NCBI RefSeq assembly: GCF_003264365.1
Contig: NZ_PYAK01000017.1
Span: 1 to 64,000 of the forward strand
DNA: 64,000 nt
Source of the DNA: Micromonospora noduli
GTDB taxonomy: Bacteria > Actinomycetota > Actinomycetes > Mycobacteriales > Micromonosporaceae
Direction of reading: 5' to 3'
Both the position numbers and the translations under genes were made by a program. Numbering within the stretch: position 1 is the stretch's first letter; every line of letters starts with the position of its first letter. Shown piece by piece: positions 35,990 through 58,086 of the stretch. The notes under the pieces were generated by a model. It had not been told where the DNA came from and did no database searches. It saw only the letters and a program-made list of their open reading frames with translations.

Positions 35990-37168
35990 TTGAGCCCCAT
36001 CCGCTCCGCGACCATCGCGGCGCTCGCATCGGCCGTAGTGGCCACCACGCTCACCGGCTGCCAGTTTGGCGAGGCGGAGCAGGACACGAGTCCGATCGTG
36101 ATCGCTGCCGATCTCGAACTCTCCGGCGCCGCAGCCACGGTTGGCCGGACATACCAGCGCGCCCTCGAACTCAAGGTCGATCAGTTGAACGCGTCCGGAG
36201 CACTGAACGGCCGGAAGATCGACCTGAAGGTGAAGGACAACCGTTCCGACTCGGCCGAGTCACTTCGCAACATCGTCGACTTCAGCAGCGATTCGAAGGT
36301 CAGCGCCATCATCATGGGCGGCTGCAACGAATGCGCGGTCGGAGCGGTCGGGACCATCAACGAGAAGCGGATTCCCACCATTGCGCTAGCCGCTTCCGGC
36401 GCGATCGCCGCGCCGGCCGCTGAACGGCGCTACGTGTTCAAGCTCGGCCCTAACGCCGCGGACAGCGCCGCCGCACTGACCACCGAACTGCGCCGCAACA
36501 ACATCCGTAAGGTGGGGATGCTGGTCAGCGACGACGACTACGGCCAGGAGGGCGCGACCGCGCTCAAGAGCGAACTGGACAAGGCCAAGATCACGCTCCG
36601 ACAGCAGCGGATCAAAACCACCGACACCGACGTCAGCCAGCAGGTCCAGCAGCTCGCGTCGGGCAAGCCCGACGCGATGGTCTTCTGGACCCCGCCTGAG
36701 CAGGCGACACTGGCCGCGACCAGCGTCCAGCAGACCATCTTCCGTGGGTCGATCTACTTCGACGCGGCAGCGGCCGGGGACCTCTTCCTCGGCGCGGCGG
36801 CCAAGGCGACCGAGAAGGCCACGCTGATCTTCACGCAGACCATGGTGATCGATGACGTGATCGCGACCACCCCGGCCAAGGCGGCGCGGCGGCAGTGGTT
36901 CCAGGACTACACGGCCCGCTTCGGCGGCTACAACGGGTCCTCGTCGTTCGCCGCGGACGCCGTCCAGCTGATCGCCGACGCCGAACTGCGCGCCGGTGGT
37001 GAGATCGGGAAGGTGGACCGCAACGGCATCCGGGACGTGCTGGAGACGTCCCAGATGGACGGCCTCTCCGGCCCGATCCGCATGACGCCGGACAACCACA
37101 GCGGCCTGATGCCGCAGGCGCTCACCACGCTGGTCGCCCGCAATGGTCGCTGGCGGTTGGCGGGGTAA
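35990..37168 (+). CDS. Branched-chain amino acid-type (Leu/Ile/Val family) substrate-binding lipoprotein
   Basis: The protein has 392 residues from TTG 35990; TGGAGGACT lies just upstream. A lipoprotein signal ends in LTGC (Cys about residue 24). The type I periplasmic-binding fold follows: IVIAADLELSGAAATVGRTY, LKVDQLNASGALNGRKIDL, IPTIALAASG and RKVGMLVSDDDYGQEGA. No permease or ATPase genes adjoin it, so it may act as a receptor component or with a distant transporter. Its divergence from the NIT-domain sensor suggests the two may share a signal. Confidence 0.85.
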   Translation: MSPIRSATIAALASAVVATTLTGCQFGEAEQDTSPIVIAADLELSGAAATVGRTYQRALELKVDQLNASGALNGRKIDLKVKDNRSDSAESLRNIVDFSSDSKVSAIIMGGCNECAVGAVGTINEKRIPTIALAASGAIAAPAAERRYVFKLGPNAADSAAALTTELRRNNIRKVGMLVSDDDYGQEGATALKSELDKAKITLRQQRIKTTDTDVSQQVQQLASGKPDAMVFWTPPEQATLAATSVQQTIFRGSIYFDAAAAGDLFLGAAAKATEKATLIFTQTMVIDDVIATTPAKAARRQWFQDYTARFGGYNGSSSFAADAVQLIADAELRAGGEIGKVDRNGIRDVLETSQMDGLSGPIRMTPDNHSGLMPQALTTLVARNGRWRLAG

Positions 37169-37225: not shown

Positions 37226-37297
37226 GGGTGTGGCCGACCGTGCCCGGCTCCGGGCGGTCAGGCTTGATCCCTCCGCCGGGCACGGTCGGCCACACCC
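37226..37297. repeat. 72-bp hairpin repeat with conserved loop, copy 1
   Basis: Bases 37226-37247 pair perfectly with 37276-37297 (22-bp stem with GGCCGACCGTGCCC at the core). The 28-nt loop (37248-37275, CTCCGGGCGGTCAGG then CTTGATCCCTCCG) is 27 of 28 identical to the loop of a second copy at 47565-47636. Stem differences between the copies are compensated on both arms. It lies after the lipoprotein gene and before the intrinsic terminator. Confidence 0.85.
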
Positions 37298-45055: not shown

Positions 45056-45132
45056 TGATCGACTCGGGTTCACTGATACCGGGCTATCCCACGCGGCCGG
45101 ACACCCCGACATCAATGAACCCGAGTCGATCA
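45056..45132. repeat. Palindromic repeat family 2, copy 1, between convergent genes
   Basis: TGATCGACTCGGGTTCA (45056-45072) is exactly complementary to 45116-45132. Imperfect pairing continues inward to about 45089/45099, giving near-34-bp arms with a 9-nt centre. It lies between the 3' ends of the low-complexity protein gene and thiC. A related element occupies 58010-58086. Confidence 0.75.
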
Positions 45133-45145
45133 CCCCGCAGGTGGG

Positions 45146-49283
<4,138 letters not shown>

Positions 49284-50453: not shown

Positions 50454-51073
50454 GTCAGGGCCTCGATCAGCTCGGCGGTAGCCCGTGCCGGGTCGGCTGC
50501 GGCGGAGACGGCACCGACCACCGCCACCCCGTACGCCCCGGCGGCCCGCAGCGCCGGCACCCGGGCGGCGGTCACTCCGCCGATCGCGATGACCGGAACG
50601 TCGACGGCGTCGACGACGGCGCGGACCCCGGCGGGCCCGATGGGGTCCGGCAGGCCGGTCTTTGTGCTGGTGGTGTGACACGGCCCGACGCCCAGGTAGC
50701 TGGCGCCCGCCGCGACGGCCTCGCGCGCCGGGCCCGGGGCGCGAGCGGTGGCGCCCAGCACACCGGTGGGGCCGAGCACCCGACGGGCGGCGGCGACCGG
50801 CAGGTCGTCGGCACCGACGTGCCCACCGGCGGCGCCCACCGCGAGCGCCACGTGCAACCGGTCGTTGACCAGGCAGGTCGCCCGGTACGACGCGCAGAGC
50901 GCGAGCACCCGCCGGGTCAGGTCGTACGCCTCGCGGTCGGTGGCGGAATCCTCGACCCGGACCTGCACCACCAGGTCGGCGTGGGCCACTGTGAGGGCGG
51001 CGCGAACCACGGCGAGTGGGTCGCGACCTTCTCGGGTGTCGGTGATGAGATGCAATCGCCCCAGGGACGGCAC
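50447..51073 (-). CDS. thiE: Thiamine-phosphate synthase
   Basis: Joins HMP-PP and thiazole phosphate. The protein has 208 residues from GTG 51073. Phosphate loop GPCHTTSTKTG, VIAIGGVTAARVPAL and CLVNDRLHVAL are present. The usual QLREK motif reads VQVRVED here, so the conserved lysine of most ThiE proteins is absent; LREKD is kept in the second paralogue (47538-48320). First gene of the operon, directly under the TPP riboswitch. Confidence 0.88.
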   Translation of the reverse strand: MPSLGRLHLITDTREGRDPLAVVRAALTVAHADLVVQVRVEDSATDREAYDLTRRVLALCASYRATCLVNDRLHVALAVGAAGGHVGADDLPVAAARRVLGPTGVLGATARAPGPAREAVAAGASYLGVGPCHTTSTKTGLPDPIGPAGVRAVVDAVDVPVIAIGGVTAARVPALRAAGAYGVAVVGAVSAAADPARATAELIEALTC

Positions 51074-51083
51074 GGCAACGCTC

Positions 51084-51170
51084 CTCCCTGCGCCGGCATT
51101 ACCCGGATCAGGTTCGACGGTCGGGGGCTGTCAGCCCCCCTCTCAGCCCGGTACACCGGGCTCCCGTGGG
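51084..51170 (-). ncRNA. TPP (THI-box) riboswitch
   Basis: On the minus strand the leader holds the pyrimidine-sensor part (CGGGCTGAGAGGG, complementary to about 51138-51150) and the pyrophosphate-sensor part (ACCTGATCCGGGTAATGCCG, about 51094-51113) ending CGCAGGGAG. An apical GGGGGCTGACAGCCCCC hairpin is the variable P3a arm. A GGAG ribosome site lies at the 3' edge, 10 bases before the thiE GTG, so thiamine pyrophosphate probably blocks translation of the whole seven-gene operon. Confidence 0.95.
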
Positions 51171-51360
51171 TTACTTGCGTGTCACCGTACGACAGATCCG
51201 CCGGCCTGCCAAGGCACGGGGTCGGCGGTGGCCGGCCGGGCGGGCCGCGCCAAAACGAGCGAGATCCAATGGGGCACTTCATACGGTCCTGTTCGGAATG
51301 TCGCCCCCCGTTGCAGAACCGTTACCCGTCCGCATCTTGCCCGACATCGAGCGAGCCGAA

Positions 51361-58009: not shown

Positions 58010-58086
58010 TGATCGACTCGGCATCCTGGAAGTCGGGGCTTCCCGGACCGCAGGTCACCCCGACTTCAAGGAACGCGAGTGGATCA
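58010..58086. repeat. Palindromic repeat family 2, copy 2, between convergent genes
   Basis: Arms 58010-58038 and 58058-58086 pair with about six mismatches over 29 bp. The outer TGATCGACTCG and inner GTCGGGG match the element at 45056-45132 (whose right arm also carries GTCGGGG in reverse complement). It lies between a terminator and the convergent aldo/keto reductase stop. Confidence 0.7.

Follow-up and report, generated by a model that had tools for sequence, protein, structure and literature searches.

Two hairpins in the window (the whole 64,000-nucleotide stretch of Micromonospora noduli DNA analysed here) raise the question of how a loop can stay almost constant while the paired stem beneath it changes on both sides. 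The preliminary description named a mobile hairpin, a protein-bound RNA and an undescribed repeat as candidates. Our analysis points to a seemingly undescribed family of small dispersed DNA palindromes, shared by Micromonospora and soil-dwelling relatives.

Two hairpins in the window

Both hairpins lie where they had been reported, at 37226-37297 and 47565-47636. The 22-bp stem and 28-nt loop first given for them describe a real object, but the count is a 23-bp perfect stem and 26 nt, the closing C-G pair having been counted as loop. Reading both copies confirmed that their 26-nt loops differ at one base and that their flanks are different. The features around them are as follows.

35990..37168, plus strand: periplasmic binding protein gene (PF13458), upstream of copy 1 on the same strand
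37226..37248, plus strand: left arm of copy 1, 23-bp stem
37249..37274, plus strand: loop of copy 1, TCCGGGCGGTCAGGCTTGATCCCTCC, near-invariant, 26 nt
37275..37297, plus strand: right arm of copy 1, 23-bp stem
46756..47541, minus strand: thiD-like gene (PF08543), its start adjoining copy 2
47538..48320, minus strand: thiE-like open reading frame, TMP-TENI domain (PF02581) at residues 17-175
47553..47564, plus strand: left box of copy 2, GGTTGCGGTTGG, resembling the box that precedes copies at unrelated loci
47565..47587, plus strand: left arm of copy 2
47588..47613, plus strand: loop of copy 2, 26 nt, one base unlike copy 1
47614..47636, plus strand: right arm of copy 2
47637..47644, plus strand: right box of copy 2, TGACGTGG

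Copy 1 begins 57 nt past the stop of the binding protein gene. On the minus strand, copy 2 codes for the C-terminal tail of the thiE-like protein, past the TMP-TENI domain; beside copy 2, this tail region also contains two copies of a 42-bp tandem repeat with 97% matches (window 47643-47726). The loop 25-mer occurs twice in the window against a mean of 0.00 in 100 shuffles, and the plus strands of the two copies gave RNA-fold z-scores of -8.70 and -9.69.

Copies in the host genome and the extent of the repeated unit

The pair is not explained by a local duplication, for 11 copies are present in the host genome (7.2 Mb), the 25-mer being exact in 10 of them and having a single mismatch in the other, while a reversed-pattern control at that threshold found none. 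A covariance-model search of the same genome, as the preliminary description had proposed, recovered the same 11 copies, with a model and alignment built from nine of them; copy 2 of the window and one other copy (L011) were omitted because their stem lengths differ. Two weak covariance-model matches (28 bits) were dropped as they have no loop, and four near-loops at two mismatches, considered as possible partners, were not convincing; the reversed control gave one such match.

Compensated stem changes, first noticed between the two window copies, recur in the nine-copy alignment, where both partners changed in 17 of the 23 pairs, 97.6% of alignment cells pair (shuffled mean 71.1%) and the covariation score reaches 0.647, compared with 0.173 after shuffling and no more than 0.168 after sliding. 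The preliminary description read such compensation as the product of structural selection. Compensation is clear, but selection is not its only possible source, as template switching during replication can yield the same pattern, according to PMC8794818.

A wider set comprised 320 distinct copies from 70 stem lineages, preselected for a stem by excluding arm scores under 13. Stem length in this set has a median of 25 pairs, and Watson-Crick pairs make up 94.8%. Beyond the 18-mer used for searching, the loop bases (TCCGGG ahead of it, C following the variable position S) are 96-100% conserved in the 139 copies with the same closing pair, and S itself is G in 63% and C in 35%. The loop can form a small inner helix, TCA-GGCT-TGA. 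In G509, which was folded, and in Trueperella bonasi, where it was read in the sequence, this becomes TGA-GGCT-TCA, a double change that keeps the pairing; the variant loop GGTGAGGCTTCATCC, found within hairpins, has the C-G of the inner helix swapped to G-C. Pairing extends further inwards in some Actinoplanes loops.

Conservation does not end at the stem. One copy per neighbour cluster at 50 Micromonospora loci, with other genera removed by hand, yielded the consensus GGT.GcGGTgGGGG for the left box and CgTGGtC for the right, where shuffled flanks gave other, weaker, G-rich consensuses. Single copies match only loosely: 18% come within one mismatch of GTTGCGGTTGG (0.7% shuffled) and 13% of CGTCGTGGTC (0.4% shuffled). 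Since boxes are shared between loci, the copied unit must exceed the hairpin, and we estimate the full element at about 105-115 bp in Micromonospora.

Distribution across genomes

With at most one mismatch, CGGTCAGGCTTGATCCCT was found in 143 of 160 Micromonospora genomes, at 0 to 29 copies each; the other 17 had no match at that threshold. A scan of the family at up to two mismatches matched 135 of the 250 genomes, representing 26 of its 44 genera, in which small counts may be chance because scattered single reversed-pattern matches also occur at two mismatches. Carriers among the matches listed include Micromonospora, Actinoplanes, Plantactinospora, Catenuloplanes and Hamadaea and, outside the family, T. 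bonasi.

Outside the family, the loop is rare but real. Six of 394 genomes in the class scan had matches: three of the genus, G450, G509 (one copy) and G596, the last of which we attribute to chance (two mismatches, no evident hairpin). T. bonasi has five exact and two variant copies. G450 has 16 copies in tandem groups, and its five congeners (G472, G632, G648, G695, G710) have none. Several G450 copies lie at contig ends, which suggests longer arrays that broke the assembly. A match in Cohnella (L193) was set aside as chance, having no stem. The exact loop was not found in IMG/VR, and plasmid and phage searches with a 48-base query, which included part of copy 1's own stem, gave partial matches to four plasmid and three phage records (E up to 1), with less than 80% of the query covered in every case.

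Some hairpins occur in convergent pairs or tandem arrays. Three tandem copies stand 115-121 bp apart in G450 (L218 / L337, G450:C4:19347-19603), and two elements stand 65 bp apart at one locus (L052) of G030, a genome with 29 copies.

Position relative to genes

Locations were assigned by a simple gene caller based on codon bias. It had been trained on these loci, is crude outside Micromonosporaceae, and placed 277 of the 320 copies; the other 43 were too close to a contig end or lacked a callable neighbour. The nearest feature was the 3' end of a same-strand upstream gene for 182 copies (median distance 20 nt) and the 3' end of an opposing gene for 22; 33 and 6 were nearest to 5' ends, and 34 lay within genes. 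Counted once per neighbour-gene cluster (122 clusters), 85 closely follow the 3' end of a gene in sense orientation, 14 lie at an opposing 3' end, 16 and 4 at 5' ends and 3 within genes. Because 122 neighbour clusters share the loop, an independent origin at each is very unlikely. The upstream genes are diverse: a stop codon lies within 120 nt of 107 copies, which fall into 47 clusters, and no common function was found, with no Pfam family in more than three of the 47 cluster representatives.

Copies inside open reading frames occur in both orientations. In a SAM-dependent methyltransferase gene (PF02636) the element is read in frame, contributing 26 residues in the example, and in some species the gene holds a second copy in the opposite orientation (25 residues in the example), at which 4 of 29 readable loci have the exact loop. 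Relatives lack the element or keep pieces such as SPETP, which are taken to be in-frame remnants.

Unrelated loci sharing both loop and boxes, copies inside genes and a patchy distribution make dispersal of the element well supported. We also considered insertion of a bare loop into pre-existing terminators, because stems in T. bonasi and G450 look unrelated to those of Micromonospora; for Micromonospora this is disfavoured by the recurrence of boxes beyond the stem and by the copies within genes.

Persistence and loss at orthologous sites

Three sites, at the binding protein (site 1), thiD (site 2) and methyltransferase genes, were sampled by protein homology without regard to the loop, each picked since the host genome holds an element there. 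Matches were found in 79 of 81, 80 of 81 and 100 of 101 genomes, of which the best 30 loci per site (the host's own included) were read; near relatives are over-represented, these being the nearest 30 loci each. One locus of 30 was unreadable at every site, and position S was unscored at the methyltransferase site. Among these best loci, site 1 had 12 exact loops, one with one mismatch, one with seven and 15 loci without the element; site 2 had 20 exact loops, two with two mismatches and 7 loci without; and the methyltransferase site had 12 exact loops, four with one mismatch and 13 loci without. Loop conservation thus does not vanish in further copies: pooled, 44 of 52 elements have the exact 26-nt loop, five have one mismatch, two have two and one has seven, and exact loops persist down to protein identities of 84%, 85% and 71% at site 1, site 2 and the methyltransferase site.

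Absences often keep halves of the arms or the left box, and deletion therefore looks like the usual form of loss. At site 2, one locus has TGGGG on both sides of the element and two element-free loci keep one GGGG, a pattern that would fit insertion or deletion. The absences inspected, mostly deletion-like, included no clean pre-insertion site next to a recent insertion. At four loci of the thiD site (L300-L303), the left box and part of the left arm are duplicated before an intact element, perhaps by replication slippage.

A second dispersed palindrome of 76-78 bp is present in the window at 45056-45132 and 58010-58086, with conserved ends TGATC[GC]ACTC...GAGT[GC]GATCA around a variable middle; 11 distinct copies were found among the fetched loci and the window, and a related palindrome sits at the loop-element site in L273.

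The constancy of the 26-nt loop, even within coding sequence, together with 0 to 29 copies per genome of the genus, could be expected of a chromosomal DNA site, for example one at which an architectural or repair protein binds a cruciform loop, held in several copies per genome with rare duplication. We know of no protein of this loop-binding kind. We consider a chromosomal site improbable, as 17 of the 160 genomes of the genus yield nothing at up to one mismatch, many relatives lack the element at the same site, and such a site does not predict the orientation towards 3' ends.

Stem mismatches and the folded strand

If selection acted on a sense-strand RNA, G.U should outnumber A.C among stem mismatches. 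The reverse was found in the element. Symmetric scoring, counted per lineage and position, gave 46 A.C and 18 G.T; a gapped arm aligner, counted by lineage, gave 71 and 28; and 78 held-out copies gave 25 and 3 (p = 2.7e-5), these being new sequences of which some come from loci sampled earlier, so that their independence is incomplete. Ordinary post-stop hairpins in the same loci served as a control and leaned the other way, with 96 G.T and 54 A.C in 212 hairpins and, with a second caller, 179 and 105 in 252. Across all mismatch classes, the elements had A.C 67/G.T 27, C.T 64/A.G 12 and C.C 15/G.G 29, and the control A.C 105/G.T 179, C.T 88/A.G 53 and C.C 85/G.G 75. The element stem evolves differently from the post-stop hairpins that neighbour it.

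Seen on the opposite strand, sense-strand A.C and C.T become G.T and G.A, so that two of the three informative classes agree with folding of the bottom strand; the ratio of C.C to G.G in the elements disagrees with it. Strand-biased mutation could also produce the asymmetry. The sense-strand flanks are T-rich and A-poor (T 24%, A 8%), a composition that makes an A.C excess from mutation alone less likely without excluding it. Actinobacterial NucS repairs G.T but not A.C mismatches, according to part of PMC11551767, and its action on a sense hairpin could contribute to the A.C excess, although it would also predict fewer G.G.

These counts bear on two further explanations. Ordinary intrinsic terminators whose loops are alike by descent or chance would account for the 3' position and the strong hairpin. 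They are already contradicted, and we regard them as very improbable: one loop recurs at 122 neighbour clusters, the boxes are common to loci, copies lie within open reading frames, the reversed pattern was absent from the host genome, neither window copy has a T-run after its stem, and the mismatch classes are unlike those of ordinary post-stop hairpins.

A stronger alternative, though still an unlikely one, is a host-functional 3'-UTR RNA, in which the transcribed hairpin would end or stabilise mRNAs while a conserved RNA-binding protein holds the loop, copies arising by duplication and being kept by selection. The excess of sense-oriented 3' positions over opposing 3' ends (85 clusters against 14) speaks for it, as do the extreme loop conservation at orthologous sites, the folded sense strands of the window copies, in which the inner helix contains a G.U pair, and one locus (L291) where a paired stem is kept around a degenerate loop, like a plain terminator. 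With A.C exceeding G.T, unlike in ordinary 3' hairpins, a sense-RNA stem is disfavoured; the copies in both orientations within open reading frames, the lack of a common function upstream and the patchy distribution beyond the family also weigh against an RNA role. The protein-bound RNA element first suggested keeps some standing, even as its stem evolves unlike a sense-strand RNA.

Searches for a transposase or a known RNA family

At gathering score, Rfam had no match at the element, and its only match in the window was a TPP riboswitch (minus strand, 51068-51177), near thiamine genes. Below threshold, microRNA models matched at the element, and there was one cspA match elsewhere in L010. With no description found in the open-access literature either, the suggestion that the repeat family is undescribed holds within the range of these searches.

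A REP/RAYT system, in which a Y1 transposase moves hairpins, had also been put forward. The Y1_Tnp domain (PF01797, E<=0.001) was present in 7 of the 30 genomes searched, six of them carriers (G030, G111, G099, G271, G335, G308), and the first three combine it with 18-29 copies each; the repeated hairpins, which in places form convergent pairs or tandem arrays, also fit such a system. Seven other carriers (G000, G450, G119, G139, G019, G072, G167), several with 15-20 copies, had no Y1_Tnp match, where the control was found in 5 of 14 genomes, and G113 has Y1_Tnp and no loop match. Carriers with and without Y1_Tnp indicate that RAYT is not needed for carriage, rather than that it was never present, and it may have been present earlier in carriers and then lost. 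As the stem and loop sizes are also unlike those of published REP families, we do not assign the element to the REP/RAYT group, and movement by a Y1 transposase is the least probable of the explanations considered here.

The loop contains CTTG, presumably a likeness to an IS91-type nick site. The IS91-type Y2 transposase (PF04986) was found in none of 16 genomes, in a search whose control likewise matched nowhere.

A proposed explanation

The reading we favour, to which we give about an even chance, is a non-autonomous dispersing palindromic DNA element made of boxes, a freely varying paired stem and a fixed loop, the loop being recognised in folded DNA by a putative trans-acting factor. Its unit would comprise a left box close to GGTTGCGGTkGGGG, a 22-25-bp stem, the 26-nt loop TCCGGGCGGTCAGGCTTGATCCCTSC with its small inner helix, and a right box close to CGTGGTC. 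The loop would be the recognition site, presented in single-stranded or cruciform DNA, and the stem would be free in sequence as long as it pairs because the factor would see the loop in folded DNA. New copies would be placed or retained mainly just past stop codons, in the sense direction of the gene. Selection on the fold may keep the arms paired, as may template-switch correction between them, or the two together, and absences with arm halves would be deletion remnants.

Several points count against a dispersing DNA element. Constancy of the loop at old orthologous sites is unlike a merely selfish copy and calls for host selection, conversion or renewed targeting, and the orientation rule of 85 in 122 clusters suits an RNA role too. 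The strand signal is mixed, the absences revealed no clean pre-insertion site, and IMG/VR, plasmids and phages gave no exact or covering match. The searches also turned up no driver: seven carriers lack Y1_Tnp, whereas six others have it. A more specific and clearly more tentative proposal is a new class of DNA hairpin that has no need of Y1, in which the fixed apical loop is read in one folded strand, the one complementary to the coding strand of the upstream gene, by a putative enzyme. That enzyme would copy or maintain the hairpin, and the stem would be a sequence-free handle kept paired through strand-specific selection or correction.

The finding brings to the Actinomycetota a large family of palindromes, some of which lie inside protein genes. 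Its hosts are culturable soil bacteria in which the driver of such elements could be sought genetically, and the near-invariant loop, set apart from a drifting paired stem, is a clean handle that could serve as bait for the factor. Comparing G.T with A.C against ordinary terminators offers a cheap test of whether a covarying hairpin is RNA or DNA, and the stems themselves are a record of how DNA palindromes stay paired, by selection or by template switching.

Comparison with known systems

Integron attC sites are recognised as folded single strands and their arm sequence is largely free; in the element described here, by contrast, the loop is the fixed part. A classical MITE would have terminal inverted repeats that match an autonomous transposon, and a target-site duplication; no transposon was found for this element, and the TGGGG and GGGG at site 2 suit insertion and deletion alike. 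REP and BIME repeats are likewise short palindromes that at times form inverted pairs. In the REP families characterised in PMC3733652, stems measure 6-13 bp (GTAG) or 8-9 bp (CGTC), most loops are short and one end has a tag, whereas the present stem is about 22-25 bp (median 25 pairs) with a 26-nt loop, and carriers without Y1_Tnp exist. Some element stems are followed by CGTC and many by TGACG or other bases, which differs from a REP-type end tag. YPAL/RU-2 of Yersinia, about 168 bp, by description also contains internal inverted repeats; PMC2229807 states that it may affect upstream transcript stability and that it makes target-site duplications, which could not be shown for our element.

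By description rather than by sequence, the element appears to work most like the Rickettsia palindromic elements (RPE), the 105-146 bp dispersed palindromes found between genes and in frame within conserved protein genes, as portrayed in PMC2229807 and PMC10969869; the title of a cited work names a Wolbachia counterpart. Ours would likewise be a dispersed palindrome of about 105-150 bp (a 72-bp hairpin with consensus boxes, total length estimated), inserted in frame in conserved protein genes such as the PF02636 methyltransferase and the thiE tail. Copies within genes are rarer here (3 of 122 neighbour clusters) than is reported for Rickettsia. We do not class the element as an RPE: its fixed loop, free stem, mostly 3' sense position and Actinomycetota hosts set it apart.
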